Origin: Paucisalibacillus globulus
GTDB lineage: Bacteria; Bacillota; Bacilli; Bacillales; Amphibacillaceae
Assembly: GCF_900184735.1 (NCBI RefSeq)
Contig: NZ_LT855395.1
Span: 248,001-312,000 of the forward strand
Length of the DNA: 64,000 nt
Reading direction: 5' to 3'
Made by a program: the position numbers and the translations under genes. The notes below the pieces were generated by a model that was given only the letters and a program-made list of their open reading frames with translations, was not told the DNA's origin and did not search any database. Of this stretch, positions 8,804 through 57,205 are shown in pieces; the stretch's first letter is position 1, and each line of letters opens with the position of its first letter.

Positions 8804-9440
8804 GGGCGCGTGGGTTGGCTTTTGGGTGGATGGTATTCTTGGACGGTCGCATGGTCTAGCATTTTGGGGTGATGTGTTCTCGGACGGGCTCATGGTCTAG
8901 CATTTTGGGGCGATGGTGTTCTCGGGCGGGCACATGGTCTGGCTTTTTGGGACGATGCTGCTCTTGGAAGGTCACATGGTCTAGACTTTTGGGGCGATGA
9001 TGCGCTCGGACGGGCACATGGTCTAGACTTTTGGGGCGATGATGCTCTTGGATGGTCACATGGTCTAGACTTTCGGGGCGATGATGCGCTCGGACGGGCA
9101 CATGGTCTAGACTTTCGGGGCGATGATGCTCTCGGACGGGTACATGGTCTAGACTTTCGGGGCGATGATGCTCTCGGACGGGTACATGGTCTGATCTTTT
9201 GGGGCGATGATGCTCTTGGATGGTCACATGGTCTAGACTTTCGGGGCGATGATGCTCTTGGAAGGTCACATGGTCTAGACTTTCGGGGCGATGATGCGCT
9301 CGGACGGGCACATGGTCTCACTTATAGGGCAGATGATGCGCTCAGACGGGCGCATCTTCTCTCTTCTCGGGCAGATGCTACCCTCAATCGGGCGCATCTT
9401 CTCTCTTCTCGGGCAGATGCCACGCCAAAACGGGCGCATG
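8804..9440 (+). repeat. Phased tandem array A: 21-bp register (42-bp higher-order unit)
   Basis: About 30 consecutive 21-bp registers. The first part is a 42-bp unit repeated 12 times (ATGGTCT anchors at 8851, 8892, 8934, 8976, 9018, 9060, 9102, 9144, 9186, 9228, 9270, 9312; one step is 41). Each unit holds two half-units, one beginning GGGCACAT or a variant and one beginning GGGGCGAT. The tail keeps the register but changes the bases between: GGGCAGAT or GGGCGCAT at 9306, 9327, 9348, 9369, 9390, 9411 and 9432, all exactly 21 apart. It lies in the intergenic gap between the acyltransferase and ku. Because 42 is divisible by 3, both strands show long but meaningless open frames (MRP/MCP repeats). 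Flanks are G/T-rich on the left and A/C-rich on the right. Confidence 0.92.
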
Positions 9441-9508
9441 CTCCCACTACACAAAATCACCCCTCACCCCAAACCAAAAACCCCCACCATACGTGAGGGT
9501 ATCCACCG

Positions 9509-10351
9509 CTATCCTTGTGCTGCTTTTTTCTTTGCGGGTGCTTTTCGTTTCTTTGGTTGAGTTGGTTTGGGTTTGTCCTTTTTGGCACGTTCCAATGATG
9601 CTTGTAAGGCTTCCATTAAATCGGTCACATTATCTGGTTTTGCTTTGTCTTTTGCAGTGGTAGTTTGATCTGCATTTTTCTTTTCTTCAATTAGATCTAA
9701 TAATGCGGTACGGTATTCATCTTTATATTTTTCTGGTTCGAATTCTGTTGTTAATTGGTCAATTAGCATTTTGGCCGTGTCTAATTCTTTTTTTGCTGTT
9801 TCTACATTTTCCGGTACATTGGGGACTTCATTCACGTCACGGACCTCATCTGGGTAATGAATTGTCTCTACAACAATGGTGTTTTTATAAACACGAATGA
9901 CAGCAAGCTGTTCTTTAGAACGAATCATCATTTTAGCGACTCCGATTTTACCGGTATCTTCTAAGGCAGCTCGAAGTAAGCCATATGCTTTACTTCCCCC
10001 TTCATTTGGGGATAAATAATAACTTTTTTCAAAGTATATCGGGTCAATGTCTTCTAATTTTACAAAATCAATGATTTCGACAGCTTTGTCTTCTTGCTCC
10101 TTTTTTAGTTCGGCAAGATCTTCTTCATCTAGAATGACGAATTTATTTTTGGCATATTCATAGCCCTTGACGATATCATCAGTCCCCACTTCTTTTTCGC
10201 AAATCGGGCATACTTTTTCATATTTTATCGGTGATTTACATTCTTTATGCAGTTGCCGCAGTGAAACATCCTTATTCTCTGTTGCTGCATGCATTTTTAC
10301 AGGGATATTCACTAGTCCAAAACTAATGGTCCCCTTCCACATGGTATGCAT
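9509..10351 (-). CDS. ku: Non-homologous end-joining protein Ku
   Basis: Homodimeric DNA-end-binding protein that recruits LigD to double-strand breaks; in Bacillus the pair protects spores. 280 residues: Ku core from MWKGTISFGLVNIPVKM to about residue 235, including a CPICEK segment near 50 in the position of bacterial Ku, and a Lys/Pro/Ala-rich C-terminal tail (last 25 residues) of the kind that contacts DNA. The frame can be read from 10372, but a GGGAGGTG site lies 5 bases before ATG 10351, inside that extension, which fixes the start. Divergent from ligD across about 107 bp, unlike the co-directional ykoV-ykoU order of B. subtilis. Confidence 0.94.
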   Translation of the reverse strand: MHTMWKGTISFGLVNIPVKMHAATENKDVSLRQLHKECKSPIKYEKVCPICEKEVGTDDIVKGYEYAKNKFVILDEEDLAELKKEQEDKAVEIIDFVKLEDIDPIYFEKSYYLSPNEGGSKAYGLLRAALEDTGKIGVAKMMIRSKEQLAVIRVYKNTIVVETIHYPDEVRDVNEVPNVPENVETAKKELDTAKMLIDQLTTEFEPEKYKDEYRTALLDLIEEKKNADQTTTAKDKAKPDNVTDLMEALQASLERAKKDKPKPTQPKKRKAPAKKKAAQG

Positions 10352-10458
10352 CACAACACCTCCCTTTTCCATAGTTTGTCGAACTCAAGCCTTTTTCATT
10401 CTCAACTGATTATTTTCTTCGCGTTTAACTCATCTTAATACGGAAGGGAGTTTTCCAG

Positions 10459-12267
10459 ATGGATGTGATGAAACCAATAGCGACAACTGATATACCAACA
10501 GATGGTGACTTTATATACGAGGTAAAATATGATGGCTTTCGTTGTGTACTCTATTGGGAGAAAAATGGTTCGGTTAGACTGATTAGTAAAAACAAGCATG
10601 ATTTAACCGCACAATTCCCTGAGATCGTTATGTTTTGCCAGGAATTAGAGGATAAAGTTAGCGATTTTATCCCTCTCCAATTAGATGGTGAATTAGTTAT
10701 TTTAAACAATGCCTACCAAGCGAATTTTTCTCGAATTCAAAAGCGTGGTCGTTTAAAAAATAGTGAATCGATAAAGAAAGCAGCACTAGAAAGACCAGCA
10801 AGTTTGCTAGCTTTTGACCTTTTGCAATTATCGGGTAAAGACTTAACTAAGAACCCTTTTGATAAAAGAAAAGAATCCCTTTCCGCTTTTTTCGACAAAG
10901 CAGAAATTCGTCGGGATATGTGGAATCGAATTGGATATGTCGAGTCTTTTCAAAACCCAAATGAATTATGGAAATTAATCTTTGACCATAAGGGCGAAGG
11001 AATGATTGCAAAGCGAAAAAAGAGTACTTACGGCACAGGAAAAAAGCATCGAGATTGGTACAAAATTAAAAATTGGCGGGTAATCCATGGATTCTTGACA
11101 GCTTATGACAGCAAAAATGATTATTTTGATGTTCAGGTTTTTGATAACAATGGATTACATTCTGTCGGAAAATGTAAGCACGGGATCGACGGAGAGGATT
11201 TTCAGACGGTTAAAACGTTATTTTTGAAAAATGGAGAGAAAAAGGGTGTAAACTACTATCTCCCACCAGCTGTTTGTGCGGAAATCCATACGCTAGATAT
11301 TTATCAAAATGAATTAAGAGAACCGGAATTTCGTCGCATTGCTCCTGAAATCAAAGCTGATGAATGCACGACGGAAAGGCTTCAACTGGATTTGGCCATG
11401 CTCCCTGATTCTATTGATTTTGCTAATACAGATAAATTATATTGGCCAGATGTGCCGTTCACCAAAGCAAATTTCTTAGCTTATATGCGGGAGATATCAC
11501 CATACATGTTACCTTTTTTAGAGAATCGAGCTCTTACAACGATTCGTTGTCCGGATGGTGTCGACGAGGAATCCTTTTATCAAAAGCACCTCCCCTCTTA
11601 TGCACCTGATTTTATAAAAGGGGTTGGAACAGGGGATGAAAAATTAATGGTCTGCGATTCTCTAGAATCATTAATGTGGTTCGCAAACCACGGGACACTC
11701 GAGTTCCATGTTCCATTTCAAGACACTAATAGCGACCAGCCTAAAGAAATCGTATTTGACCTCGATCCACCAGGTAGGGAAAAGTTCGAATGGGCGATTA
11801 AGGCAGGGTTACTTATAAAGCAGGTCCTAGATAATTTGAATGTCATTTCTTTTGTTAAGACCTCTGGAAATAAAGGGCTTCAAATACATATTCCCATACC
11901 AGAAGGAAGCATGACATATGAGGATACAGGTGTTTTCACCCAAGCCATTGCCTATACGATAGAGAACCAACACCCCGATTTATTTACTACGGAACGAATG
12001 AAGAATAAACGGAATGGAAGGCTATATATCGACTATGTACAGCATGGAAAGGATAAGACCTTAATTGCCCCTTATTCGAGTAGAAAAACACCAGACGGGA
12101 CGGTTGCTACTCCATTATATTGGGAGGAAGTGACTGAGGATTTAAGGCCAGAGATGTTTACAATTGAGAATGTAGTGGAGCGAGTACAATATTTGGGATG
12201 TCCTTTTCGTGATTACTTTCAGGTCGGGCGGGTGCAGAATCTGGATAGAGTATTGAAGTTGATATAA
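10459..12267 (+). CDS. ligD: ATP-dependent DNA ligase D (ligase plus polymerase domains)
   Basis: 602 residues with the Bacillus domain order: N-terminal ATP-dependent ligase (about 1-300) and C-terminal primase-polymerase domain (about 315-595); no phosphoesterase domain. Ligase motifs: adenylated Lys23 in EVKYDGFR, LDGELVI, EGMIAKRKKSTYGTG and WYKIKNW. Polymerase motifs: the metal-binding FDLDPPG around 434 and TSGNKGLQIHIPI around 470, followed by RLYIDYVQHGKDKT. It fills gaps and seals ends brought together by Ku. Start ATG 10459 has GGAAGGGAG upstream. A shared divergent promoter region with ku suggests joint control; I could not identify a convincing SigG box there. Confidence 0.95.
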   Translation: MDVMKPIATTDIPTDGDFIYEVKYDGFRCVLYWEKNGSVRLISKNKHDLTAQFPEIVMFCQELEDKVSDFIPLQLDGELVILNNAYQANFSRIQKRGRLKNSESIKKAALERPASLLAFDLLQLSGKDLTKNPFDKRKESLSAFFDKAEIRRDMWNRIGYVESFQNPNELWKLIFDHKGEGMIAKRKKSTYGTGKKHRDWYKIKNWRVIHGFLTAYDSKNDYFDVQVFDNNGLHSVGKCKHGIDGEDFQTVKTLFLKNGEKKGVNYYLPPAVCAEIHTLDIYQNELREPEFRRIAPEIKADECTTERLQLDLAMLPDSIDFANTDKLYWPDVPFTKANFLAYMREISPYMLPFLENRALTTIRCPDGVDEESFYQKHLPSYAPDFIKGVGTGDEKLMVCDSLESLMWFANHGTLEFHVPFQDTNSDQPKEIVFDLDPPGREKFEWAIKAGLLIKQVLDNLNVISFVKTSGNKGLQIHIPIPEGSMTYEDTGVFTQAIAYTIENQHPDLFTTERMKNKRNGRLYIDYVQHGKDKTLIAPYSSRKTPDGTVATPLYWEEVTEDLRPEMFTIENVVERVQYLGCPFRDYFQVGRVQNLDRVLKLI

Positions 12268-12297
12268 TAGTGCTTGCTATATCCATAAAAAGGAAGA

Positions 12298-12342
12298 ATG
12301 AGGCTGAGAAAAAGAGTTTAATTACCTACCAGCCTCTTTCTT
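12298..12342. terminator. Weak bidirectional terminator between ligD and the anti-sigma gene
   Basis: GAGGCTG / CAGCCTC with a long (about 23-base) loop, flanked by T-rich sequence on the plus strand and by a CATTCTTCCTTTTT tract on the minus strand. Confidence 0.5.
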
Positions 12343-12358
12343 TCATGATATTTAAAGA

Positions 12359-13591
12359 CTATTGACTCTTATTAATCATCTCAAAATAATGATTCATCGT
12401 AGTTCTTAGTTCATTAAATGAATTCTCAAGTGTTAAATCATCCAATTCACTTACTCTCATTTTCTCAAATACAACATCGGTAATTTCTACTATTTTTTCA
12501 AGCTTCTTTTGCTCATTTTTTGAATCAGTCAGTTCTAAAAAATGTTTAGCATAACCATTTGCAGTTGTAACGATATGTTGCTCATACGTATACTTATCTG
12601 TTGATTCCAATAGCTCTTTATTTTCACGATTTAAAAATATTACATATTGTGCAATGAACTCATCTACTGAATAAAATTCAGGTGCAGGTAGTACATTTGG
12701 GTTAGTTTTAGCTAATTCTTCTATTTCATCTTGACTCAAAACGATCCCCTTTTCCGTCTCAGGAACTTCCAAGCTAGCTACATTAGCTAATTCCGTCGCG
12801 GTATGGAAGTCGCTAATAAGATTTAACACATTGTTAAAAAGTTGATATGCTTCTTCTTTGTCACTATTTAATAATGCTTTGGATTCTTCTAAATAATTTA
12901 TTGTCTTATCAACCCATTCTTCAATTGAATTATAGTTATCAGAGTACTTTTTAACTTCATATAGATGCTCTAATTCAAGTTCAATGAATCCTAGTCGGTC
13001 CCACTGATAGGACTCTAAATCAATTTCTGCTTTAAGATTGGCTACGTGACCTAAAATTACCCCTAGGATTTGGTCTTCAGTTGGTTCTGATTGCCCAATC
13101 TCCGGGTCATACCCCACACCTATAAACTGCTTTGTAGGAACATGAAATTGATATCCGTTTTCATAATATAGAACATTTAATTCTTCCTTCACAATTCCTT
13201 CTGTAGGCAACTCATATCCCTGAAATATTTTGATAATAGCTGCATATTCTTCTATTAAATCCTTATTCTCTTGAATAAAATTAGATTCATTTTTAGTGCT
13301 AGAATCGCTCTCTGGTAATTTCACACTAGAACCTGGTTCATTATTTGTTGAAGGATTTTCTGGAGATTCTGCTGTTTCTCTATTATCGTTTGTAATATTT
13401 ACTAGTAGAATGAAGGCAATTAATATGGTAGTAACTACACCTAATAAAGTAGGCATTAGCCTGAAGTAAGAAGGGCTCTTCTTTTTCCTTGTATTACACT
13501 TTATGCTAAGTACTTTCCTTTGGCTTTCCGTTGTAAAGATTGGGTCTGACCCTATAATAGAATCGATACTATCCTTTACATTATTATGCAT
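12359..13591 (-). CDS. Putative membrane anti-sigma factor, unrecognised family
   Basis: 410 residues encoded directly after the ECF sigma gene (one base between its stop and this ATG), which is the standard place for a cognate anti-sigma factor. A short cytoplasmic N-terminus of about 40 residues contains the basic RKKKSPSYFR, then one membrane segment (about 44-66, LLGVVTTILIAFILLV), then a large outside part of about 345 residues: a Ser/Glu/Asn/Pro-rich linker and an acidic helical domain. No zinc (ZAS) motif is seen. The frame extends to 13630, but GGGAGGAAGG precedes ATG 13591. I do not recognise the external domain; it is not RsiV-like. The role is inferred from position and topology. 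Confidence 0.6.
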   Translation of the reverse strand: MHNNVKDSIDSIIGSDPIFTTESQRKVLSIKCNTRKKKSPSYFRLMPTLLGVVTTILIAFILLVNITNDNRETAESPENPSTNNEPGSSVKLPESDSSTKNESNFIQENKDLIEEYAAIIKIFQGYELPTEGIVKEELNVLYYENGYQFHVPTKQFIGVGYDPEIGQSEPTEDQILGVILGHVANLKAEIDLESYQWDRLGFIELELEHLYEVKKYSDNYNSIEEWVDKTINYLEESKALLNSDKEEAYQLFNNVLNLISDFHTATELANVASLEVPETEKGIVLSQDEIEELAKTNPNVLPAPEFYSVDEFIAQYVIFLNRENKELLESTDKYTYEQHIVTTANGYAKHFLELTDSKNEQKKLEKIVEITDVVFEKMRVSELDDLTLENSFNELRTTMNHYFEMINKSQ

Positions 13592-13592
13592 A

Positions 13593-14138
13593 TTAACCTT
13601 CCTCCCTTCTATAATCATGTAACCTTTCACCTATCTTTTTTCTTGCTCGAAATAGTCTTGTTTTAACTGTGTTCTGCGTAAGTTCTAATAAATGGGAAAT
13701 TTCTTCAATTGATTTTTCTTGATAATAAAACAATATAATTACTTCTCGAAATTTAACAGGTAAGCTTAGTATGACTATACCTAATTCTTGTTCCTTCTCT
13801 TTTTCGATAAGTTTCTTGTCAGGGGATAGCCCGCCATGGGGAATAGACTCTTCAATTCCTTCGCTCTTAAAAAAAAGGGTACGTATTGACCACCTTCGCA
13901 ATTCATCACGGCATCTATTAATCGTAATTCTATACAGCCATGTTTTTATCGCGGACTCTCCACGAAATTGATCAATCTTCTGAAAAACTTTTATAAAAAC
14001 GTCCTGAACAATTTCCTCTGCACGCCCTCTATCTTTAACATATGTAAAAGCAAGCCGAGCTAAAGCTTCACCATGTTCCTCCATGAGTTGCTCTATTAAT
14101 AATTCTGGATTATTTATTTTCGAGTTGTTATAAGACAA
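13593..14138 (-). CDS. RNA polymerase ECF sigma factor
   Basis: About 181 residues with sigma region 2 (residues 15-85, including ARLAFTYVKDRGRAEEIVQDVFIKVF and the promoter-melting FRGESAIKTWLYRI, cited as two segments) and region 4 (about 120-175, with LPVKFREVIILFYYQE and a helix-turn-helix SIEEISHLLELTQNTVKTRL). Two TTG starts are possible: 14153 and 14138. AGGGGGAG lies between them, so 14138 is preferred. The next gene is the putative anti-sigma factor. A well-formed ECF-type promoter lies 40 to 70 bases upstream, which suggests autoregulation. It is related to the SigM/SigV/SigX-like cell-envelope group, but the exact member cannot be named. Confidence 0.9.
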   Translation of the reverse strand: MSYNNSKINNPELLIEQLMEEHGEALARLAFTYVKDRGRAEEIVQDVFIKVFQKIDQFRGESAIKTWLYRITINRCRDELRRWSIRTLFFKSEGIEESIPHGGLSPDKKLIEKEKEQELGIVILSLPVKFREVIILFYYQEKSIEEISHLLELTQNTVKTRLFRARKKIGERLHDYRREEG

Positions 14139-14181
14139 GTTACTCCCCCTCAAATCCTGCCATGTATCCTATTACACTATT

Positions 14182-14209
14182 TAGACGCAGAAAAACAATT
14201 TTGGTTCCC
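14182..14209 (-). promoter_or_regulatory. Candidate ECF-type promoter of the sigma/anti-sigma operon
   Basis: On the minus strand GGGAAC (14209-14204), a 16-bp spacer and CGTCTA (14187-14182). B. subtilis ECF promoters share an AAC core at -35 and CGTMTA-like -10 with a 16 to 17-bp spacer. The spacer contains a T run, also usual. Consistent with self-activation. Confidence 0.65.
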
Positions 14210-14333
14210 ATAAAAACTTTAATTTAAACATTCACATTGAAACTTTTTCGGTTATTTCTTTGTTCCTTAAATGTTAACATAGAAGGAATAAAATGGAATC
14301 CATTCAACATTTACTAAATACTGGACATAAACA

Positions 14334-14373
14334 TAAAAAGTGCAGTCCAACTCAGGTTGCTAATTGGACTGCT
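14334..14373 (-). terminator. Second terminator-like hairpin downstream of tcyP
   Basis: GCAGTCCAA / TTGGACTGC with a 13-base loop, followed on the minus strand by ACTTTTT. It lies about 45 bases beyond the main tcyP terminator. The rest of the gap 14210-14333 shows nothing further. Confidence 0.55.
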
Positions 14374-14416
14374 ACTCTTAAATGTGATATTTTCAGTTTG
14401 AGCTCTTTAACAAACT

Positions 14417-14450
14417 AAAAACCGCTCCTATCTAGGAGCGGCCTTTTTTA
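14417..14450 (-). terminator. Intrinsic terminator of tcyP
   Basis: Minus-strand stem CCGCTCCTAG / CTAGGAGCGG-type hairpin with T run on both sides; immediately after the tcyP stop. Confidence 0.88.
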
Positions 14451-14452
14451 TA

Positions 14453-15847
14453 TTAAAGTGATTTAGCTTCTTCAATTGCCGTTTTATCATTGAAAACTTT
14501 TGTATTAAAGTTTCCTAAGATACGGGAAGTTAACGTACCAGATACCATAGATCCATTTACGTTAAGTGCTGTACGACCCATGTCGATGAATGCTTCGATA
14601 GAGATTAGTAAACCAGCTAAACCAACTGGTAATCCCATAGAAGATAGGACGATTAGTGCTGCAAATGTAGCACCACCACCAACACCAGCGATACCAAATG
14701 AACTAATTCCAATGATTAGAACTAATTGTACTAGGAATTCTAGTGAGAACGGATCAATACCAACAGATGGTGCGATCATTACTGCTAACATAGCTGGATA
14801 AATTCCGGCACATCCATTTTGCCCCATTGTTGCACCGAATGATGCTGACATATTGGCAACACCTTGTTCCACACCAAGTGCATTTTTTTGTGCTGAGATA
14901 TTTAAAGGTATCGTACCAGCACTTGAACGTGATGTGAATGCGAAGGTTAGTACAGGTAATACTTTCTTCAAATAGTTGATCGGATTCAAACCAAATACTC
15001 CGACTAATACTAAGTGAAGGATAAACATAACTCCTAATGCTACATAAGAAGCTAATACAAATTTACCAAGTTCTAAAATACCTGCAAAATCTGTACTTGC
15101 AATCATATTAGCCATTAACGCTAAAATACCGTATGGTGTTAAACGTAATACCAATGTTACGATTCGCATAACGACTGCGTAGATTGCATTAACTATTTTA
15201 GTGAACATTTCTGCTTGCTCAGGGTTCTTTCTTCTAACCCCAAGAACGGCTATCCCAACGAAAATGGAGAAGATAACCACCGCAATAACTGAAGTTGAAC
15301 GTTGACCAGTCATATCAAAGAAGATATTAGACGGGATAAAGTTCAAAATACGTTGTGGTGTAGATACTCCTTCTACTTGAGTTGAATAACGCTCCTCAAG
15401 TGATGCTGCACGGTCTTGTTCCGCTTGCCCTACCGTAATTTCTTCTGCATTTAAATCAAAGATTGCAGCTGCACCAACACCAATTAATGCTGCTACCATG
15501 GTCGTTGTGATTAAAATTCCGATAATCCAGCCAGCCATTTTTCCTAACTGTGCTGTTTTTTCAAGGTTTGTAATTGCTTGAATGATGGATACCATAACTA
15601 ACGGTACAACAATCATCATTAAGAAGTTGATGTAGCCTCGACCAACAATATTAAACCAATCTGTTGTCATCGCCACTATTTCAGAACCACTACCATAAAT
15701 CCACTGTAATGCAGCTCCAAGTAAAACCCCTAATCCTAAACCAGTAAATACTCGTTTAGAAAACGAAACATGTTTACGTTGCATGTAAACTAATAAACCA
15801 ATTAATGCTAATAAAATAACAATATTTAAAATGACCATTAAGTCCAT
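14453..15847 (-). CDS. tcyP: L-cystine transporter TcyP (dicarboxylate/amino acid:cation symporter family)
   Basis: 464-residue symporter that matches the 463-residue B. subtilis TcyP in length and start (YMQRKHVSFSKRVFTGLGLG near residue 23). Eight or more membrane helices. The re-entrant region TSRSSAGTIPLNI (about 315) carries the SSAGT motif of the DAACS family, and GQNGCAGIYPAMLAV follows. It imports cystine as a sulfur source with cations. The frame is open to 15886, but GGGGGA lies 6 bases before ATG 15847. No S-box is visible upstream, so it is not in the SAM regulon by that mechanism. Single gene with its own terminator. Confidence 0.85.
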   Translation of the reverse strand: MDLMVILNIVILLALIGLLVYMQRKHVSFSKRVFTGLGLGVLLGAALQWIYGSGSEIVAMTTDWFNIVGRGYINFLMMIVVPLVMVSIIQAITNLEKTAQLGKMAGWIIGILITTTMVAALIGVGAAAIFDLNAEEITVGQAEQDRAASLEERYSTQVEGVSTPQRILNFIPSNIFFDMTGQRSTSVIAVVIFSIFVGIAVLGVRRKNPEQAEMFTKIVNAIYAVVMRIVTLVLRLTPYGILALMANMIASTDFAGILELGKFVLASYVALGVMFILHLVLVGVFGLNPINYLKKVLPVLTFAFTSRSSAGTIPLNISAQKNALGVEQGVANMSASFGATMGQNGCAGIYPAMLAVMIAPSVGIDPFSLEFLVQLVLIIGISSFGIAGVGGGATFAALIVLSSMGLPVGLAGLLISIEAFIDMGRTALNVNGSMVSGTLTSRILGNFNTKVFNDKTAIEEAKSL

Positions 15848-16044: not shown

Positions 16045-16051
16045 TACGGAA

Positions 16052-21267: not shown

Positions 21268-22356
21268 ATGAACTTGTCGAATAAACGTTGGTTTCAAGTT
21301 TTAGTAGGGTTTATTTTAGTTTTTCTATTAATCTATTTAATCTACATAACTCGTTTTATTTTTGACCCATTATTTAAGTATGTTGGTGCGGTTGCTTTTC
21401 CATTTATTGCAGCTGGACTACTATTCTATCTAACTAAACCCATTCTCAAACTATTAATGAAATATAAAGTTCCAAAACTAGTCGCCATTCTACTTGTATT
21501 TATATTAATTATTGTGGTTGGCTATGTGTTTACCATTTTCGTTATCCCTATTGCTCAGGATCAATATACGAGGTTTATTAACAATATTCCAAGTATGATT
21601 AAAGGAGCAGAGGATGTAATCGATTATATCCAAGATAATCAAAAGATTATTCCGGATGAGGTTTATAACACGATCGATAATATTATGGCCAATCTACAGA
21701 CCTATTTTGAAGGGTTTATGACGTTCTTGCTAGGTTTTATTACACAAGTTATTGGTTTTGTATTCTCTTTAGTACTAGTGCCTTTCTTCTTGTTCTTTAT
21801 GTTCAAAGATGGGGATAAGTTCATCCCTTTTGTTACACAAATTTTCGAACCAAAGAAAGCTAGCAATCTACGTAATCTGTTACGCAAAATCGACCATACC
21901 TTATCTGCCTATATCCAAGGGCAACTACTCGTTAGTTTAAGTATTGGTATTATGCTGTTTATTGGTTACTTAATCATTGATTTAAATTATGCATTAGCCC
22001 TAGCCTTATTCGGAATGATGATGTGTATTGTACCATTTATTGGACCTTTTATTGCCGTTATTCCAGCAGTCATCGTTGGTGTATTCCAAGATCCAATGAA
22101 CGTCGTTTGGATCGCACTGATCATGATCATCGCACAACAAATCGAAGGAAACTTTATCTCACCGAATATTATGGGGCATGTACTACGAATCCACCCATTA
22201 ACCATTATTACCATCATTCTAGCTGCAGGAAGTATTGCAGGATTTATTGGAATTCTATTCGCCGTCCCATTCTACGCAGTGGTAAAAACTATCATTGTAC
22301 ATTTCTGGGAAACCTACCAAGATACGCGGAAGAATAAGGAAGATGCATTGATATAG
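21268..22356 (+). CDS. AI-2E family transporter (YdbI-like)
   Basis: 362-residue membrane protein with seven or eight helices: an N-terminal pair, a pair around 65-95, an amphipathic loop (about 100-165, FINNIPSMIKGAEDVIDYIQ), then the conserved C-terminal bundle with the AYIQGQLLVSLSIGIMLFIGY motif and QIEGNFISPNIMGHVLRIHP. Members include sodium/proton antiporters and peptide or signal exporters, so the substrate is open. The frame starts from a TTG at 21202, but the ATG at 21268 follows an AAGAAAG site and gives the usual family N-terminus. Ends in a strong terminator directly before phased array B. Confidence 0.85.
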   Translation: MNLSNKRWFQVLVGFILVFLLIYLIYITRFIFDPLFKYVGAVAFPFIAAGLLFYLTKPILKLLMKYKVPKLVAILLVFILIIVVGYVFTIFVIPIAQDQYTRFINNIPSMIKGAEDVIDYIQDNQKIIPDEVYNTIDNIMANLQTYFEGFMTFLLGFITQVIGFVFSLVLVPFFLFFMFKDGDKFIPFVTQIFEPKKASNLRNLLRKIDHTLSAYIQGQLLVSLSIGIMLFIGYLIIDLNYALALALFGMMMCIVPFIGPFIAVIPAVIVGVFQDPMNVVWIALIMIIAQQIEGNFISPNIMGHVLRIHPLTIITIILAAGSIAGFIGILFAVPFYAVVKTIIVHFWETYQDTRKNKEDALI

Positions 22357-22359
22357 TAT

Positions 22360-22389
22360 AGCAACAGCCTGGTGCTGTTGCTTTTTTTG
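22360..22389 (+). terminator. Intrinsic terminator of the AI-2E-type gene
   Basis: Perfect AGCAACAGC / GCTGTTGCT with a 5-base loop and seven T. Confidence 0.9.
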
Positions 22390-22415
22390 TTTGTGGAGGG
22401 ATGTTCGCGGGGATT

Positions 22416-22921
22416 GAGCATATGCTTCTTGGGCACGGGCGCGATGTTCGTGGGGATTGGGCACATCCTTCTCACATTTGGGAGCATGGTCGCGGGGATT
22501 GGGCACATCCTTCTTATACTTGGGAGCATGGCAGCGTGATTCGGGAACATCCTTCTTATACTTGGGAGCATGGTCGCGGGGATTGGGCACATCCTTCTTA
22601 TACTTGGGAGCATGGTCGCGGGGATTGGGCACATCCTTCTCATACTTGGGAGCATGTCCGCGAAGAACGGGCGCAGCCTCCTCATACTTGGGAGCATGGT
22701 CGCGAAGAACGGGCGCATCCTCCTCAGACTTGGGAGCATGTCCGCGGGAATCGGGCACATACTCCTCATACTTGGGAGCATGCACATGGGGATCGGGCAC
22801 ATACTCCTCATACTCGGGAGCATGGTCGCGAAGAACGGGCGCATCCTCCTCAAACTTGGAAGCATGTTCGCAGGAATTGGACACATGTTCTGCAGACTTG
22901 GGAGCAACTTCGCGGGATCGA
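22416..22921 (+). repeat. Phased tandem array B: 21-bp register
   Basis: About 24 registers. After one 22-bp step near the left end (22416, 22437, 22459), the motif GGGAGCAT alternates with GGGCACAT or GGGCGCAT at exactly 21-bp steps from 22459 through 22900 (22 consecutive positions without slip). The 13 bases after each motif change along the array in blocks. It starts about 27 bp after the terminator of the plus-strand transporter and ends before the stop of the minus-strand GNAT gene. The flanks are related inverted sequences (CTTTTTTTGTTTG on the left; its reverse complement form near 22930-22945 on the right). Long open frames in at least four frames here are artefacts of the 42-bp higher-order unit. 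Confidence 0.93.
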
Positions 22922-22986
22922 CCACACTCCAAACAAAAAAGAACATGCCACTCCCCTCAAAGGTTAGAGTTACATGTCCTTTCCCA

Positions 22987-40589: not shown

Positions 40590-41122
40590 TGAGATGATGT
40601 ATGGATTTGCTCTATGGTTCATTTTGGCAAAGAATTCAGGTTGTAATGATGTAAGAAAGTGCATCATTCTTCTTTTCATCAGGAATTTCAGGCTGAAATG
40701 ATGTATAAGAGTGCTCCATTCTTCTCTTCATCAGGAATATCATATTGAAATGATGTATATGAGTGCTCCATTCTTCTCTTCATCAGGAATATCATATTGA
40801 AATGATGTATATGAGTGCTCCATTCTTCTCTTCATCAGCAAGTTCAGGCTGAAATGATGTATATGAGCACTCCATTCTTCTCTTCATCAGGAAGTTCGGG
40901 CTGAAATGATGTATATGAGCGCTCCATTCTTCTCTTCATCGGGATGTTCAGGCTGAAATGATGTATATGAGTGCTCCATTCTTCTCTTCATCAGGACTAT
41001 CAAATTGAAATGATGTATAAGAGTGCTCCATTCTTCTCTTCATCAGGAATATCATATTGAAATGATGTATATGAGCGCACCATTCTTCTCTTCATCAGGA
41101 AGTTCGGGCTGAAATGATGTAC
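40590..41122 (+). repeat. Tandem array with a strict 52-bp period
   Basis: Eleven unit starts at exactly 52-bp steps: TGAAATGATG (or a close variant) at 40590, 40642, 40694, 40746, 40798, 40850, 40902, 40954, 41006, 41058 and 41110. The first two units are strongly diverged, the rest 85 to 100 percent alike by eye, with alternate blocks AATATCATAT or AAGTTCRGGC before the anchor. The period is not divisible by 3 and no long frame is open. It lies upstream of the hut promoter and downstream of the symporter terminator, so outside both transcription units. Different in sequence from the 21-bp arrays. Confidence 0.93.
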
Positions 41123-48407: not shown

Positions 48408-50330
<1,923 letters not shown>

Positions 50331-50351: not shown

Positions 50352-51398
50352 TTGATTAAAAACATGTATAAGGAAACGAACAAGATTGAAATTGGCCCGC
50401 TCCTATTAGAGAATGGAGAATCAATTCCTGTAGTTTCCATGCAGTATGAACGAGTTGGACCTGTAAACGCACCAATCATCTTAGTATGTCATGCGCTTAC
50501 CGGCAATCATTTAGCTGTTGGCAGCGAGGACCAACCAGGTTGGTGGAGTGGCCTTATTGGGAAGAATAAATCCATTGATACTACTGATTTTCAGATTATT
50601 ACATTCAATGTACTTGGTGGGTGTCATGGCTCAACAGGGCCTACTTCAATAAATCCAAAAACCAAAGAACCTTATCGGACTGACTTCCCTAACATATCTA
50701 TTCGTGACATCGTTCAGGCTCAGTTCCTGGCACTAAATCAAATGAATGTGAGCAAGCTATATGCCGTTATTGGTGGCTCACTTGGTGGAATGCAAGCATT
50801 AGAATGGGGCCTCATTTATCCTGATTTTGTCGAAAAGATGGTAGTACTTGCTGTTACCCCAACTCTTTCTGATTATGGAATTGCTTTTAATCACATTGCC
50901 GAACAAGCAATCACACGTGACCCTGCTTGGCAAAATGGTAATTACCCATCCCCTATTCCTCTTCAAGGATTAGAAATCGCTAGAATGATAGGTATGGTTA
51001 CGTATCGTAGTGCAGAGCTATTTACAGAACGATTTAATCGGACTAAAACGGATAATAAATTCTCAGTGAATTCCTATTTAGATTACCAGGGCAAAAAATT
51101 AGTAAAACGTTTTGACCCGAATAGCTATCTATATTTATTACAAGCGATGGATACACATGACATAGGTCGAAATCGCGGCGGATGGAAAGAAGCTTGTAAA
51201 AAGTATACTTGTCCCATACTAACGTTAAGTTTTGAACATGATCTAATCTATGAACCAAACGTAATCGCTGAATTTGCAGAATGTACTCCAAACAGTACGT
51301 ATCATCATGTCCAAACAAAATTTGGGCATGATGGCTTTTTAACGGAGTTTGAAAAATGGAGTTGGACGATTAATGAATTTCTAAATCATAAGGAGTGA
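50352..51398 (+). CDS. metX: Homoserine O-acetyltransferase (MetX)
   Basis: Forms the O-acyl homoserine used by MetY. 348 residues with the alpha/beta-hydrolase triad: Ser143 in GGSLGGMQALEWG, Asp297 in EHDLIYEPN and His326 in KFGHDGFL; HALTGNHLAVG is the oxyanion region. Start is TTG 50352 with AGGAGGG 6 bases upstream; an in-frame ATG four codons later has poorer spacing. It follows metY by 21 bp and precedes hom by 4 bp. Acetyl rather than succinyl use is assumed from the metY partner. Confidence 0.93.
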   Translation: MIKNMYKETNKIEIGPLLLENGESIPVVSMQYERVGPVNAPIILVCHALTGNHLAVGSEDQPGWWSGLIGKNKSIDTTDFQIITFNVLGGCHGSTGPTSINPKTKEPYRTDFPNISIRDIVQAQFLALNQMNVSKLYAVIGGSLGGMQALEWGLIYPDFVEKMVVLAVTPTLSDYGIAFNHIAEQAITRDPAWQNGNYPSPIPLQGLEIARMIGMVTYRSAELFTERFNRTKTDNKFSVNSYLDYQGKKLVKRFDPNSYLYLLQAMDTHDIGRNRGGWKEACKKYTCPILTLSFEHDLIYEPNVIAEFAECTPNSTYHHVQTKFGHDGFLTEFEKWSWTINEFLNHKE

Positions 51399-51402
51399 TG
51401 AT

Positions 51403-52410
51403 TTGAAGAAAAAAATCAAGATTGCATTACTTGGGTTTGGAACAGTTGGAAAAGGAATTTATTACAGTTTGAAGAATCATCCGAAACGAATTAGCAAGAC
51501 AATTGGTTTTGAGATTGAAGTTGTTTCTATCGTTGTAAAACACTTAGAAAAGCACCAGGATTTTGAAGATAATAAACTGATCACAACTGATTTCGAGACG
51601 GTTATTCAAAACCCTGAAATCGATATTGTATTAGAAGCAATTGTCGGCAAAGAACCTGCCTTCAGCTATTTATCCCAAAGTATCAAAGCCGGCAAACATA
51701 TCATTACAGCCAATAAAGAAATGTTTGCTCATCATGGCGAGGAGTTACTTGAACTCTCCCAGAAACACGATGTCAACATTGGCTTTGAGGCTACAACTGC
51801 TGGTGGAATACCCGTTATTAATACAATTGGAAAACTGTTTCAGTTTAATGAAATAAAAAAAATCACCGCAATATTAAATGGAACATCCAATTACATCTTG
51901 ACCCAAATGCGTGTACAGAAGCTTCCATTTAATATTGCACTGAAGCAAGCACAAGAGTTAGGCTATGCAGAAGCAGACCCTACGAATGATATCGAAGGTT
52001 ATGATTCGTTTTATAAGCTTATGATTCTAGGCCAACTAATCTATGGTAAACAACCGGATTGGAGTAGTGTTAATCGGGAAGGTATCGTGAATATAACAGC
52101 TAAGGAGATTGAGGATTATAATCTTGAAGACAAACGAATTAAACATATAGCATCATTAGAATTACAAGATAATACCCTCACAGCAAGTGTTAAGCCAGTT
52201 GTTATATCTTCAGAACATCCATTGTACTCTATCGAAGGGGTTGAAAATGCAGTTGTGATAGAAGGAGATGTTGTCGGGCAAATTACCCTTTCAGGTCCAG
52301 GAGCAGGAGCATTTCCCACAGCAAGCGCTATGTTAGAGGACTTATGCTTGATTCTCCAATCTGAACGAAGTACTACCTCATCCCCTATTTTGGCTAAGGC
52401 TATTTTGTAA
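51403..52410 (+). CDS. hom: Homoserine dehydrogenase, short form without ACT domain
   Basis: Reduces aspartate semialdehyde to homoserine. 335 residues: NAD(P)-binding GFGTVGKGIYYSL at the N-terminus, ITANKEMFAHHG with the catalytic-region Lys, ATTAGGIPVINT, LNGTSNYILTQM and AEADPTNDIEGYDSFYKL. It ends after the catalytic domain, about 95 residues short of Hom proteins with a C-terminal ACT domain, so threonine feedback is probably absent. Start TTG 51403 with AAGGAGTG 6 bases upstream. Being under the S-box, it looks like a methionine-dedicated paralogue; a second, threonine-linked hom elsewhere would be expected. Confidence 0.93.
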   Translation: MKKKIKIALLGFGTVGKGIYYSLKNHPKRISKTIGFEIEVVSIVVKHLEKHQDFEDNKLITTDFETVIQNPEIDIVLEAIVGKEPAFSYLSQSIKAGKHIITANKEMFAHHGEELLELSQKHDVNIGFEATTAGGIPVINTIGKLFQFNEIKKITAILNGTSNYILTQMRVQKLPFNIALKQAQELGYAEADPTNDIEGYDSFYKLMILGQLIYGKQPDWSSVNREGIVNITAKEIEDYNLEDKRIKHIASLELQDNTLTASVKPVVISSEHPLYSIEGVENAVVIEGDVVGQITLSGPGAGAFPTASAMLEDLCLILQSERSTTSSPILAKAIL

Positions 52411-52420
52411 GAGATTGTTT

Positions 52421-52442
52421 ATAGACTGGTGCCGGAGCGGTA
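52421..52442. repeat. Possible remnant of the MITE-like family
   Basis: ATAGACTG followed directly by GTGCCGGAGCGGTA joins a terminal-repeat-like start to the arm end GCCGGAGCGGTAG of copies A and C. Only 22 bp, so chance is possible. Confidence 0.35.
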
Positions 52443-52510
52443 ACGTTTCACAATCCCGCTTTATTGAATAGCAACATACTTTACACAATCAGCCTTTGTT
52501 GGTTAATCCC

Positions 52511-52540
52511 AAGCGCCTTTATGAGGCGTTTTTTTCTTTT
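52511..52540 (+). terminator. Intrinsic terminator of metY-metX-hom
   Basis: AAGCGCCT / AGGCGTT hairpin with a short loop and seven T. Confidence 0.82.
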
Positions 52541-52684
52541 ATATGACAAATTGTTAATCCACTTTTAAAACTCATCAAAATTGGGTATACATAATAAAAT
52601 CAGTAGATTTATGTTTTTACCACACATACATTATAGTAACGAGCGCAATTTAAAGATATAAACTACTCGCATAGGTGTGTTCAA

Positions 52685-53572
52685 ATGACAAAAAAGACAA
52701 TCATCATGACCTTCATTTCTATTTTTATCATTGTCTTAGGGATTGGAATATATAACTTTCAGCGCCAGGAAACCTCCCCCCTACATCCTGATTCAGAGAA
52801 CCATACAGTTATAGATGAATCTAGTGAACAAGACGAGACCTCAGAAACAAAAGATGAAACCAACGAAAAGCCTAGTACACCTGCAGCAGAATTATCAAAA
52901 GAATTTTCAATGGCTATTCAAAATACAATCAAATTCTTCTCTGGAAATAATACGAAAATTGTAGCGATTGGTGATTCATTAACGCAAGGTGTAGGGGATA
53001 GTACGGAGCAAGGTGGGTTTGTGGGGATTTTAGATAACCATATTAATCAGAACAAAAAGATAGCAACATTCGAAAACCTTGGAAAACGTGGTAATCAAAC
53101 CACTCACCTAATAAAACGTATAGAGGATCCAGATATTAAGAAGTCACTGAAAAATACAGATATTGTCCTGATTACTATTGGTGCCAATGATATCATGCAA
53201 GTAGCTAAAGAAAACTTCGCTGATATGACCTATGATATTTTTGCAGCAGAGAGAATAAATTATGAGGGGCGGCTTCATACAATTCTTTCCACTATAACTA
53301 ATCTAAATCCTGATGCTTCTATTTATCTAATTGGATTCTACAATCCATTCCAGCAATACTTTGAGCATATTAAAGAGCTCGATATGATTGTAGACGACTG
53401 GAATAATACAAGTAAACAGGTTGCCGACGTTTATGGAGCCACATTTATTCCTACAAAGGATTTATTTACGAATGAAGAAGCTAACTTATTTGCTGATGAT
53501 CATTTTCATCCAAATAAAAACGGATATCAATTAATTGCTGAAAGAATATTAGACTATTTAGTTGTAGATTGA
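52685..53572 (+). CDS. Membrane-anchored SGNH/GDSL hydrolase (YpmR-like)
   Basis: 295 residues: one N-terminal anchor (about 5-24, IIMTFISIFIIVLGIGIYNF), an acidic Ser/Thr/Glu linker to about 70, then the SGNH domain outside the cell. Blocks: GDSLTQGVGD (nucleophile Ser), NLGKRGNQT, ITIGANDIM and DDHFHPNKNGY (Asp and His). Esterase or lipase acting on envelope lipids or acyl groups is likely; substrate unknown. A YpmS-like gene follows 20 bp downstream, as ypmR-ypmS in B. subtilis. Confidence 0.85.
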   Translation: MTKKTIIMTFISIFIIVLGIGIYNFQRQETSPLHPDSENHTVIDESSEQDETSETKDETNEKPSTPAAELSKEFSMAIQNTIKFFSGNNTKIVAIGDSLTQGVGDSTEQGGFVGILDNHINQNKKIATFENLGKRGNQTTHLIKRIEDPDIKKSLKNTDIVLITIGANDIMQVAKENFADMTYDIFAAERINYEGRLHTILSTITNLNPDASIYLIGFYNPFQQYFEHIKELDMIVDDWNNTSKQVADVYGATFIPTKDLFTNEEANLFADDHFHPNKNGYQLIAERILDYLVVD

Positions 53573-53592
53573 AACAATAGAAGGTGAACAGG

Positions 53593-54228
53593 TTGGAAAA
53601 CAATAAAAAAAATAAGAATAAGTGGAAGAGATATTTTTATACGCTTCTCCTTTTAAACATATCCGTACTACTTATTATTGGGTTACTCATTTTTTGGCCT
53701 GTTAATCAGTCCGTAGTTCCTTTTTCAGAACATGATGCAACCCATGAGAGTTCTGAATTTATTATCAGAACGACAAAAAAGAATTTAAATGAGCTGATCA
53801 ATGCATATATGTATGAATATCTAAAGGACTCCAAGCACCAATATCGTGTTTCTTTAGAGGAGGATGTTCATTTAATAGGAGAATTACCAGTCTTTTCTAC
53901 TACCGTGCCAATCCAAGTTCATCTGGAACCCATTGTTCAAGACAACGGGGATGTCATCCTAAAACAGAAGTCAATATCATTGGGTTTAATGGAATTACCT
54001 AACAAAAAGATTATGGAGTATATGGATAAGTACTTACCAGTTCCAAAATGGGTTTCTATTAATCCAGAAGAAGAAGAGATTTATGTAGCCGTTACCCAGA
54101 TGGATATAAAAAGTAACTTCCGAGTAAGTGTGGAGCAAATGGATTTGGAAGCAAATAACTTAGCCTTTAAACTAAATGTACCATATGAGACTTTGGGTAT
54201 TGAGACATTATTAATGAAAGAACAATAA
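53593..54228 (+). CDS. YpmS family protein (DUF2140)
   Basis: About 211 residues. A basic N-terminus (NNKKNKNKWKRYFY), one membrane segment (about 17-38) and an outside beta-rich domain with HEIGELPVFSTTVPIQVHLEP-like strands (region 90-125) and the C-terminal FRVSVEQMDLEANNLAFKLNVPY typical of DUF2140. Function unknown; constant pairing with the SGNH hydrolase suggests the two work together at the outer membrane face. A GTG at 53584 and a TTG at 53593 both open the frame; GAAGGTG spaced 6 bases favours the TTG. Confidence 0.8.
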   Translation: MENNKKNKNKWKRYFYTLLLLNISVLLIIGLLIFWPVNQSVVPFSEHDATHESSEFIIRTTKKNLNELINAYMYEYLKDSKHQYRVSLEEDVHLIGELPVFSTTVPIQVHLEPIVQDNGDVILKQKSISLGLMELPNKKIMEYMDKYLPVPKWVSINPEEEEIYVAVTQMDIKSNFRVSVEQMDLEANNLAFKLNVPYETLGIETLLMKEQ

Positions 54229-54267
54229 AAGGGTCATACCGCCACTTAGGTGAGGTTGACCCTTTTT
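54227..54267 (+). terminator. Intrinsic terminator of the YpmR/YpmS-like operon
   Basis: AAAGGGTCA / TTGACCCTTTTT, with a smaller inner hairpin (CCGCCACTTAGGTG) in the loop. Confidence 0.82.
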
Positions 54268-54295
54268 CGATCGATAGATAAATATAATCTTCTTT

Positions 54296-54907
54296 CTATC
54301 TAACTACAAATTCCTTAAGCTTACGTGAAATAGAATAAATAAATGATTGCTTTGGTAATTCGAGCGTTTCCTCTCGCAACTTGTGCTTGGGATAATCTCC
54401 TAATCTACCTTGAAAGATTAATTGTAATTCTGAGTTTTCTCTGATGTCGGCAGGAGTTACGAAGTTAGTAGGTTTTGATAGTTTAAATGACTTTGTATCT
54501 TTCATAAGCGTAGCAACAAATTGAGAACAGAAGTAAGCATTCTTTCTATTAATCTCAACCTTAAGGGGTATTGCAACTAATCCAATAAAATTATATTTAT
54601 AATCTGAAGCATTTGTTTGAAATACACTTATATGATGTCGAATACTTTCATATTCCTGTTCTGTAATATTTAAGGCATAAACAGCACTCTTGGAGTCCCT
54701 TAGGAAATCGCCTCGAATATCTTCTCGAACAAATCCACCACTAAATGGATTTTTAGGATTAATTCTCCCGAAGCTATAAACCTCTTTCAATTCATGGTCA
54801 AATCCAATGGATACATGATTTAAAGGCTTATTTGTATATAAATTTATCATTCTTGAAAGGTATGTCCCTGTATCAGTAAAGATAAAGTAGATTGTCCTTC
54901 CTCTCAT
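54296..54907 (-). CDS. YiiX/NlpC-P60-like (permuted papain fold) cysteine hydrolase
   Basis: 203 residues. His31 in LNHVSIGFDHELKEVYSFGR and Cys127 in NAYFCSQFVATLM occur in the His-first, Cys-later order of permuted papain-like hydrolases (YiiX/YebB type), which cut amide bonds of peptides or lipids. No signal peptide is evident, so it may act in the cytoplasm. GGAGGGG precedes the ATG. Convergent with the YpmS gene and divergent from the ABC-F gene. The family is inferred from motif order; substrate unknown. Confidence 0.75.
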   Translation of the reverse strand: MRGRTIYFIFTDTGTYLSRMINLYTNKPLNHVSIGFDHELKEVYSFGRINPKNPFSGGFVREDIRGDFLRDSKSAVYALNITEQEYESIRHHISVFQTNASDYKYNFIGLVAIPLKVEINRKNAYFCSQFVATLMKDTKSFKLSKPTNFVTPADIRENSELQLIFQGRLGDYPKHKLREETLELPKQSFIYSISRKLKEFVVR

Positions 54908-55096
54908 GTCTTCCCCTCCACTCAGGCCTTATGCCGAGCATTTCTCTTTTTAAAACAAGTTCATAAACGGATATAACAAAACTTTACCGAAAAACTTACA
55001 ATTATACAAGACAATTTTGCAAAAATCTTTGTTAGAATCATCCAAATAGTCGTAAATCCAGTGTTTTACATTGACGAAACCCCTTAAATTTCGTAA

Positions 55097-56758
<1,662 letters not shown>

Positions 56759-56768
56759 GTTTTTAGGT

Positions 56769-56803
56769 GAACCCCCTGCTTTGGTTGCAGGGGGTTCTTT
56801 GTT
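56769..56803 (+). terminator. Intrinsic terminator of the ABC-F gene
   Basis: GAACCCCCTGC / GCAGGGGGTTC with a 6-base loop and a T-rich tail. Confidence 0.9.
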
Positions 56804-56840
56804 TGTCTTTTTGGTGGGGTGTTCTTTTTGGGTTTGGTTT

Positions 56841-57205
56841 GGGTGCATGTGCTGACTGCGTGGGTGCATTCTTTTCTGTTTTGGGCACATGTGATGGCTG
56901 CATGGGCGCATTCTTTTGCGATTTGGGCACATGCACTGGCTAAACGGGCGCATCCTTTACCATTTTGGGCACATGTACTGGCTAAACGGACGCATCCTTT
57001 CCTGATTTGGGCACATGCACTGACTTGGCGGGCGCATCCTTTCCTATTTTGGGCACATACACTGACTGCGCGGGCGCATCCTTTCCTATTTTGGGCACAT
57101 ACATTGAATAACCGGGCGCATCCTCTCCTATTTTGGGCACATACACTGACTGCGCGGGCGCATCCTTTCCTATTTTGGGCACATGCACTGACTACCAGGG
57201 CTCAT
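56841..57205 (+). repeat. Phased tandem array C: 21-bp register
   Basis: Eighteen GGGYRCAT-type motifs at exactly 21-bp steps from 56841 to 57198 with no slip (56841, 56862, 56883, 56904 and so on). GGGCACAT alternates with GGGCGCAT, giving a 42-bp higher-order unit. The 13-base segments after the motifs alternate between ACACTGACTGCGC-like and CCTTTCCTATTTT-like. It lies between the terminators of the convergent ABC-F and tdh genes. The left flank (56810-56840) is G/T-rich. Long frames through it on both strands are artefacts. Confidence 0.93.

Follow-up and report, generated by a model that had tools for sequence, protein, structure and literature searches.

What are the short-motif tandem arrays that occupy three gaps between genes in the 64,000 nucleotides of Paucisalibacillus globulus DNA analyzed here (the window): products of duplication alone, or elements whose motif and spacing are kept by selection? 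All three arrays are present as given in a preliminary description, with a shared motif on the plus strand at a 21-bp step, and the unslipped runs reported for arrays B and C are confirmed at 22 and 18 unit positions, each in one phase. The claim that the step is strict holds for B and C; phase slips occur in some arrays, and some relatives use 20 bp. The features are as follows (type 1 is one of two motif classes defined below).

8800 to 9445 (approximate; scored segment 8886-9439), plus strand: array A, type 1, 42-bp dimer GGGGCGATGATGCTCTCGGAC / GGGCACATGGTCTAGACTTTC
9440 to 9489, plus strand: C+A-rich trailer of array A, 0.10 G+T over 50 bases
22360 to 22382, plus strand: terminator-like hairpin of the gene left of array B, from a hairpin search
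22400 (approximate) to 22917, plus strand: array B, type 1, dimer GGGAGCATGGTCGCGGGGATT / GGGCACATCCTTCTTATACTT, 22 unit positions in one phase
56769 to 56797, plus strand: terminator-like hairpin of the gene left of array C, from a hairpin search
56798 to 56837, plus strand: G+T-rich leader of array C, 0.94 G+T in the last 50 bases before the scored array
56838 to 57208, plus strand: array C, type 1, dimer GGGCACATGCACTGACTACGC / GGGCGCATCCTTTCCTATTTT, 18 unit positions in one phase
57209 to 57236, plus strand: C+A-rich trailer of array C, 0.26 G+T in the first 50 bases after the scored array
57241 to 57269, minus strand: terminator-like hairpin of the gene right of array C, from a hairpin search

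Arrays B and C each lie between convergent genes, as called by a simple codon-usage script written for this analysis. The hairpin search found two in gap C against 0.6 expected from shuffles and one in gap B against 0.8, and by eye several other arrays adjoin terminators. Array A has a degenerate, TG-rich left end starting at about 8720; in the 27 unit positions of its scored segment GGGGCGAT alternates with GGGCACAT, so that many units are not exact GGGNRCAT. For all three arrays the best period in Tandem Repeats Finder is 42 bp, made of two 21-bp half units (87, 81 and 82% matches), and duplication of a 42-bp dimer is thus part of the picture. Composition also changes from end to end: over 29 arrays, mean G+T is 0.72 in the 50 bases before and 0.31 in the 50 bases after. 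This change is its own reverse complement and therefore carries no polarity, and simple binding sites give no explanation for it. Pairing of the two ends into a long hairpin was rejected, as most arrays have few left-right pairs and folding gave no consistent z-score.

The total of three arrays is superseded by a wider count, which puts at least 33 in gaps between genes in the stretches of the genome read. The flanking genes differ from locus to locus. The motifs fall into two classes that share the 21-bp pitch: type 1, GGGCRCATG, and type 2, GGTCACAAG. Three successive GGGNRCAT at 21 bp match 181 times in the 3.92-Mb genome and the backwards pattern never, which argues that the array motif is not due to chance. 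A more tolerant scan at pitches of 19, 20, 22 and 23 bp, covering the window and 18 stretches of the genome, returned two 2-unit matches and no array. With the motif reversed as a control, the 21-bp scan matched four times (in the window, L152, L153 and L155), in each case within arrays, where repeated units cross-match.

Such arrays could be neutral minisatellites, descended from a common seed and enlarged by slippage and unequal exchange, their orientation reflecting replication-dependent slippage and their conservation ancestry. The 42-bp dimers of the window, with 81-87% matches, are what this predicts, as are spacers 0.51 identical within P. globulus arrays, copy numbers that vary greatly among species, and the occurrence of other tandem families, of 52 and 51 bp, that are likewise intergenic. 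Neutral decay would, however, remove motif and pitch alike, and the comparison with Paucisalibacillus sp. EB02 (genome G007) speaks against that. Here orthologous gaps were picked through their flanking genes and not by motif, with three duplicate loci and gaps below 80 or above 5000 bases set aside. A short 21-bp array in the same orientation lies in 23 of the 30 gaps (19 under a stricter threshold), and both the opposite orientation and the reversed-motif control gave zero. Motif pairs number 75 at a distance of 21, 57 at 42 and 40 at 63, whereas other distances average 4.8; the corresponding values at 21 in genome G001 are 58 against 4.9. Between units of the same G007 array, spacers are 0.38 identical and columns G1, G2, C6 and A7 0.73, a value biased upwards because units were picked by motif, and beyond motif and pitch the units have little in common.

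The motif class also persists between the two genomes. With duplicates removed and L151:5289 counted as type 2, all 17 distinct type 1 loci that hold an array in G007 are type 1 there (5 of 128 positions type-2-like), and of seven type 2 loci four are type 2 and three are called type 1 (26 of 64 positions type-2-like). A search of related genomes had been proposed in the preliminary description, and these gaps uphold its view that motif and spacing are kept while the intervening bases change. Recent duplication alone is accordingly insufficient, given the largely unrelated spacers in G007, even though the P. globulus arrays are still amplified as 42-bp dimers. Across species, the arrays keep their motif, pitch, locus and strand but not their spacers; as the former outlast the latter, selection is likely, and we conclude that motif and pitch are very probably under selection. 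Divergence between units is not equal in motif and spacer, short-array units in G007, Allobacillus and the genus g121 are mostly alike only in motif and pitch, and the two classes keep their strand in the P. globulus genome, all of which makes a neutral origin unlikely.

That strand is the replication strand. By local GC skew with the arrays masked, P. globulus type 1 arrays are lagging-sense in 23 cases and leading-sense in none, while type 2 arrays are leading-sense in 10 and lagging-sense in none. Mapping by flanking orthologs onto the complete genome G023 (dnaA at 0.853 Mb) agrees for 16 of 16 type 1 and 10 of 10 type 2 arrays, with places and strands entered by hand and two of the 26 anchors, at 52-53% identity, possibly paralogs. 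The 26 come from 32 compared: L149:9546, L154, L157 and L158 had no match among the matches listed, L149:18121 had only a 52% paralog-like one, and L160:7705 is of ambiguous class and would be lagging. A cruder classing of 37 P. globulus entries disagrees with the strand rule twice, since it assigns the slipped array L151:5289 (leading side) to type 1 and the four-unit L160:7705 (lagging side) to type 2. Outside the P. globulus genome the rule is weaker. In G001 the 21-bp classes divide into five lagging and four leading for type 1 and two leading and one lagging for type 2; exceptions number one of three in G003 and one of four in G010; and in G007, 3 of the 19 calls are leading-side type 1 arrays, all at P. 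globulus type 2 loci.

Neighboring genes do not set this orientation. Relative to them, type 1 arrays are parallel to both in 3 cases, antisense to both in 11, between convergent genes in 7 and between divergent genes in 2, and they are lagging-sense in all four arrangements. An origin of the two classes in compositional skew is rejected by argument: the GGG of type 1 falls on the strand poor in G. An element acting on RNA or insulating transcription (a terminator back-stop, an RNA repeat or a sponge) would account for the arrays that follow terminators, and of 29 arrays, 7 fold better than shuffles by at least 3 sd when the array strand is taken and 3 when the opposite strand is (12 shuffles each). 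The remaining arrays stay under 3 sd, however, and their strand tracks replication rather than the neighboring genes. No consistent open frame runs through them, and at gathering thresholds Rfam has no match on the window arrays, its single match in the window being a SAM riboswitch elsewhere. We regard a role of this kind as highly improbable.

A replication-strand polarity without exception in the local-skew test of P. globulus, and an 8-mer that starts with GGG as KOPS does, suggest instead sequences that guide a DNA translocase or the fork in one direction, which would be a special case of the explanation favored below. KOPS and SRS, the sites that FtsK and SpoIIIE recognize through their gamma domain, are likewise short polar motifs biased to one replication strand, but in the excerpt of PMC5357621 they are dispersed, unphased, mostly on the leading strand and of other sequence. 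The sites described here are clustered in phased arrays in gaps, with type 1 lagging-sense in 23 of 23, the strand opposite to KOPS, and type 2 leading-sense. All 26 mapped arrays lie within 1.4 Mb of dnaA and none nearer the terminus, a distribution in which mapping bias is possible, whereas KOPS rise towards dif (same excerpt). Such guide sequences are very unlikely.

Among the described families tested, none fits the arrays. Clustered regularly interspaced repeats (CRISPR) have repeats of about 23-47 bp that are almost identical, are separated by unique spacers and lie next to cas genes; here we find an 8-bp degenerate motif with 13-bp, partly repeated spacers at dozens of loci. REP/BIME elements share the many intergenic copies, but are palindromic units in alternating orientation, whereas the units of an array are direct and in one orientation. 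Some arrays do contain palindromic units such as GGAGCATGCTCC, which cause weak cross-scores on the opposite strand. Plasmid iterons and centromere repeats, which Rep or ParR binds cooperatively, are also head-to-tail direct repeats of similar length (about 18-22 bp), yet they occupy one locus beside a rep or par gene and not dozens of chromosomal loci. REP elements are linked to RAYT transposases, and the arrays could by analogy be a selfish satellite, copied by a motif-recognizing enzyme with strand-preferring insertion at forks and then inherited vertically. Their strand preference, their spread to dozens of gaps and the way motif and pitch (21 to 20 bp) have changed without a change of locus would fit such an element; the loci common to species (23 of 30 gaps in G007) do not, and array C, the one searched, has no match in plasmids or phages. 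We consider this origin a poor candidate.

Regulators of the LytTR family bind 9-bp direct repeats 12 bp apart, in a minority 11 or 13 (excerpt of PMC6193735), a pitch of 20-22 bp that includes the roughly 21 bp of the arrays. In that excerpt, however, they are two repeats just upstream of a promoter, with another consensus, as opposed to rows of 3-38. A consensus promoter scan of the window arrays, with 0.9 sites expected from shuffles in each, found none in gaps B and C and one near A, outside the array. STAR elements of staphylococci also resemble the arrays in part: as far as the excerpt of PMC3532100 goes, they too are intergenic direct repeats with a conserved short motif, a variable spacer and an expanding and contracting copy number. 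Their 14-bp GC-rich motif and 40-44 bp spacer differ from the consensus and the pitch of 21 or 20 bp found here, and according to the same excerpt their loci are not conserved between species and their spacers are conserved within lineages, where the arrays have loci and orientation common to species and largely unrelated spacers. Neither "orientation" nor "leading strand" appears in the text of that paper. Among the matches listed from the open-access PMC literature, none describes such arrays.

We propose that each array would be a head-to-tail row of sites for a sequence-specific DNA-binding protein, with one protomer per two helical turns (21 bp, or 20 bp in some relatives), so that all protomers could sit on one DNA face and touch. 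This geometry is plausible, as 21 bp corresponds to two turns and some relatives use 20 bp. The rows would stand in gaps between transcription units, B, C and others by terminators, and because orientation and class follow the replication strand, a bound row would be polar relative to the fork. Their most likely service would be to organize the chromosome or mark replication polarity. That the reader is a DNA-binding protein is probable, and cooperative binding and a use of the polarity are inferred with it; a role in chromosome polarity is put forward tentatively, and to the explanation as a whole, phased protein-bound rows with replication polarity, we give an even chance. It is possible, rather than probable, that the arrays form a new class of chromosomal element with a two-motif replication-strand code, one-face phasing and a putative polymerizing binder, in which loci and strand stay while motif and pitch change in concert (21 to 20 bp), much as the satellites of eukaryotic centromeres turn over along with the proteins that bind them. 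If so, some Bacillus-like bacteria would mark their chromosome by polar, helically phased landing strips, stable in position and strand but fast-evolving in sequence. This would be a fork-polarity code in addition to KOPS, parS and Ter, and would give a simple bacterial example of coevolution between a satellite and its binding protein. The arrays are short and numerous, which makes this reading directly testable.

Such turnover is suggested by a variant with a 20-bp pitch and a changed core, GC.GATRT, in orthologous gaps of two further species, G001 (7 of 27) and G009 (7 of 21), where the reversed-motif control gave one in each. At type 1 loci these arrays keep the orientation (six in each genome), and at a type 2 locus (one in each) they are flipped, again lagging-sense if fork direction is the same; by local skew, nine of nine 20-bp arrays in G001 are lagging-sense. 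Across the 11 genomes of the genus, 21-bp arrays are present in G000, G001, G003, G005, G007 and G010. Genome G002, of another species, has an array in none of 23 orthologous gaps, G004 has no match to the array model, and O. caprae carries a different, homogeneous GGGAACATCGGACAC array. Several species of the genus thus have no array or a different one, and the array is dispensable.

Relatives also occur in Allobacillus, with units alike in little but motif and pitch. Model R1 was built from arrays of G000, G001, G003, G005, G007, G010 and Allobacillus, where matches are expected by construction, and so only those in G006, G026, G100 and G108 are new. Searches with a model scored a limited number of top candidates in each genome (28 in one search, 11 in two others), and the numbers of matches are lower bounds. 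Short relatives, GGGCACAATT...GTTA at 21 bp, are found in other families of the order. In the genus g121, 14 of 15, including orthologs and neighbors that are not independent, have positive 3-kb skew in the array orientation, as for type 2; elsewhere one of three does. The g121 units share little except motif and pitch, and compared unit by unit (one of four groups being paralogous within one genome) motif columns changed in 23 of 245 cases and spacer columns in 52 of 279 (P = 0.0026). Motif columns are not slower than flanking sequence (55 of 586), and these rates give only modest direct support for motif constraint.

Broader matches in Bacteroidetes, Treponema, Geomonas and others, among the matches listed, are by eye mostly homogeneous 21-bp tandem repeats; they were not counted. 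Coding was rejected as well: some open frame spans 23 of 37 arrays against 3.5 in shuffles, but the frame differs (8, 3, 9, 4, 2 and 14 open arrays per frame), as follows from repetition of a stop-free unit. Spurious open frames spanning an array can be long, for example 22255-22932 on the minus strand of the window, and annotation should beware of them.

Re-reading of the window confirmed the presence and places of the three arrays named in the preliminary description, and with them the unbroken 21-bp step of arrays B and C, where 22 and 18 unit positions, respectively, follow one another with zero slips.

Array A, about 8800–9445, plus strand, type 1: six terminator-like hairpins in its surroundings (1.4 expected), some within the array
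Array B, about 22400–22917, plus strand, type 1: starts shortly after one terminator-like hairpin (0.8 expected)
Array C, 56838–57208, plus strand, type 1: flanked by two terminator-like hairpins facing inward (0.6 expected)

The genome-wide search for the motif at 21-bp steps, which the same description had proposed, places these arrays in a much larger set: three successive copies of GGGNRCAT at 21 bp match 181 times in the 3.92 Mb (23 contigs) of the P. globulus genome, and the pattern read backwards matches nowhere in it. Twenty-nine arrays were analysed from the window (contig C12:248001–312000) and 18 other stretches surrounding matches, with more arrays coming from four further stretches; at a fixed threshold, the stretches read hold 33 arrays, with up to 38 units. 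Array density appears to be higher in C12:145–305 kb than elsewhere (18 arrays in the read parts of about 160 kb), an enrichment owed in part to the larger share of this region that was read; the genes near these arrays include what we take from sequence to be murA, atpC, glyA and prfA.

Across 532 distinct, motif-anchored units from 27 arrays, conservation is concentrated at G1 (0.87), G2 (0.93), G3 (0.77), C4 (0.56), A/G5 (0.81), C6 (0.77), A7 (0.87), T8 (0.80), T11 (0.80) and T20 (0.62), and positions 13–19 are almost unconstrained. The motifs fall into two classes, type 1 (GGGCRCATG) and type 2 (GGTCACAAG). By our own gene calls the 29 arrays are intergenic, three of them overlapping a low-scoring open frame. 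The arrays have in common neither an RNA fold nor an Rfam match nor a reading frame. Long open frames do occur within the window's arrays (22255–22932, minus strand; 22401–22967, plus; 8856–9311, minus), and gene finders may call proteins there. G+T content is 0.72 in the 50 bases preceding the 29 arrays and 0.31 in the 50 bases following; the composition change in array-free gaps, gauged differently, by skew over the 60 bases at either end, is weaker (for example, GC skew from +0.19 to -0.09 between convergent genes, 18 gaps).

In P. globulus the orientation of the arrays follows the replication strand. Judged by local GC skew with the arrays masked, the motif is lagging-sense in 23 of 23 type 1 arrays and leading-sense in 10 of 10 type 2 arrays of P. 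globulus; under a cruder classing, two of 37 entries disagree, one a slipped array and the other an array of four units. A skew-independent mapping of 26 arrays through flanking orthologs onto a complete relative genome, with dnaA at 853 kb and the terminus assumed opposite, agrees throughout (type 1, 16/16; type 2, 10/10); the mapped arrays lie at most 1.4 Mb from dnaA and none closer to the terminus, a distribution in which mapping bias is possible. Type 1 arrays are antisense to both neighbouring genes in 11 cases, lie between convergent genes in seven, parallel to both in three and between divergent genes in two, and are lagging-sense in all four contexts; the neighbouring genes therefore do not set the strand. 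By local skew, exceptions to the rule number 3/19 in Paucisalibacillus sp. EB02, every one at a P. globulus type 2 locus, 1/3 in Ornithinibacillus halotolerans and 1/4 in O. massiliensis, and in the relative G001 type 1 is lagging-sense five times and leading-sense four, and type 2 leading-sense twice and lagging-sense once.

Orthologous gaps, found through flanking proteins in four species, show what is retained. In strain EB02, 23 of 30 gaps hold a short array at 21-bp steps, oriented as in P. globulus, none holds one facing the other way, and the reversed-motif control scores zero; the strain's arrays are mostly shorter than those of P. globulus, and its motif-pair distances peak sharply at 21, 42 and 63 bp. 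At 17 distinct type 1 loci its array is type 1 in every case, and at seven type 2 loci four are type 2 and three, with mixed units, were called type 1. Spacers within its arrays are only 0.38 identical, which upholds the earlier claim that motif and period are held while the intervening sequence changes. In G001, 8/27 gaps hold a 21-bp array that is likewise oriented as in P. globulus (opposite 0, control 1) and 7/27 a 20-bp array with the core GC.GATRT (control 1); the 20-bp form recurs in 7/21 gaps of a third relative, G009 (control 1), where none of the 21 gaps has a 21-bp array. In each of these two species six 20-bp arrays keep the orientation and one, at a type 2 locus, is flipped; given the same fork direction, the flipped arrays would fit the lagging-sense rule, and by skew the 20-bp arrays of G001, the one genome so assessed, are lagging-sense in 9/9 cases. 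Neither form was found in the 23 gaps of the fourth species (control 1, at a lower threshold). Taken with the EB02 spacers and classes, these counts indicate that the arrays keep their locus, orientation and pitch, and for the most part their class, as their spacers diverge.

Run against 159 genomes of the family, a sequence model built from the arrays finds them in at least seven of the 11 genus members and in at least three others; at the level of the order, at least 11 of 397 genomes, P. globulus included, have them. Since six of the seven genus genomes contributed sequences to the model, only the seventh (G006, one match) and the matches in other genera are new. At least three contigs of Allobacillus halotolerans bear GGGNRCATAT arrays with a 21-bp step and diverged spacers. 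Related motifs also form arrays in O. caprae and Virgibacillus litoralis, but these are homogeneous and resemble plain tandem repeats. In a genus of another family (g121), short 21-bp arrays of the form GGGCACAATT...GTTA are in part orthologous between species, and a model of this kind also matches one P. globulus type 2 array. Local skew is positive along the array in 14/15 g121 loci, which are non-independent, versus 1/3 in other genera, and a second, adjacent 21-bp array follows in seven of the 18 skew-tested loci of this kind.

L222, L228, L233, L242 and L231, L234 (g121): second 21-bp arrays, motif GTCCGATATA or TCCCATAAA, directly adjoining GGGCACAATT arrays

Column changes in aligned g121 arrays (motif 23/245, spacer 52/279, flank 55/586) support constraint on the motif above that on the spacers, but not above that on the flanks.

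A two-turn pitch of 20 or 21 bp and a polar motif kept without its spacer have, we infer, the look of sites for a DNA-binding protein arranged head-to-tail; a putative protein would bind head-to-tail at successive units, two helical turns apart. The replication-strand code suggests a role linked to chromosome polarity. LytTR sites share this pitch range (PMC6193735). STAR elements (PMC3532100) are nearest in kind, but the arrays differ from them in pitch, locus conservation and spacers. The view that no described family has this form holds for the families compared, since the arrays lack at least one tested defining feature of each, and among the matches listed in the open-access literature we found no description of such arrays.

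Other repeats were seen alongside. Intergenic tandem arrays with a 52-bp period (about five helical turns), occur also with multiples of 103–104 and 155–156 bp; a core AAATGATGT...CATTCTTC is common to those of the window and L156 and to some in G001. A 51-bp family in G001, CTATTAGACTAAGTTTACGG... / AAAGGACAGAGTTA (L207:5650–5977, also L200 and L202), occupies a gap orthologous to that of a P. globulus array.

Window 40635–41121; L156:383–1098; L161:16946–17387; L166:1409–2024 (O. halotolerans): arrays of 52-bp period
L168:12241–12846 (O. massiliensis): 21-bp array of an entirely different motif, TTCTCGCGCGACTTC, with a C+A-rich end
L179:7500–8500 (the complete relative genome used for mapping): GGGAACATC repeat array of irregular pitch, about 18–22 bp
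Window 48408–48525: SAM riboswitch (Rfam RF00162)
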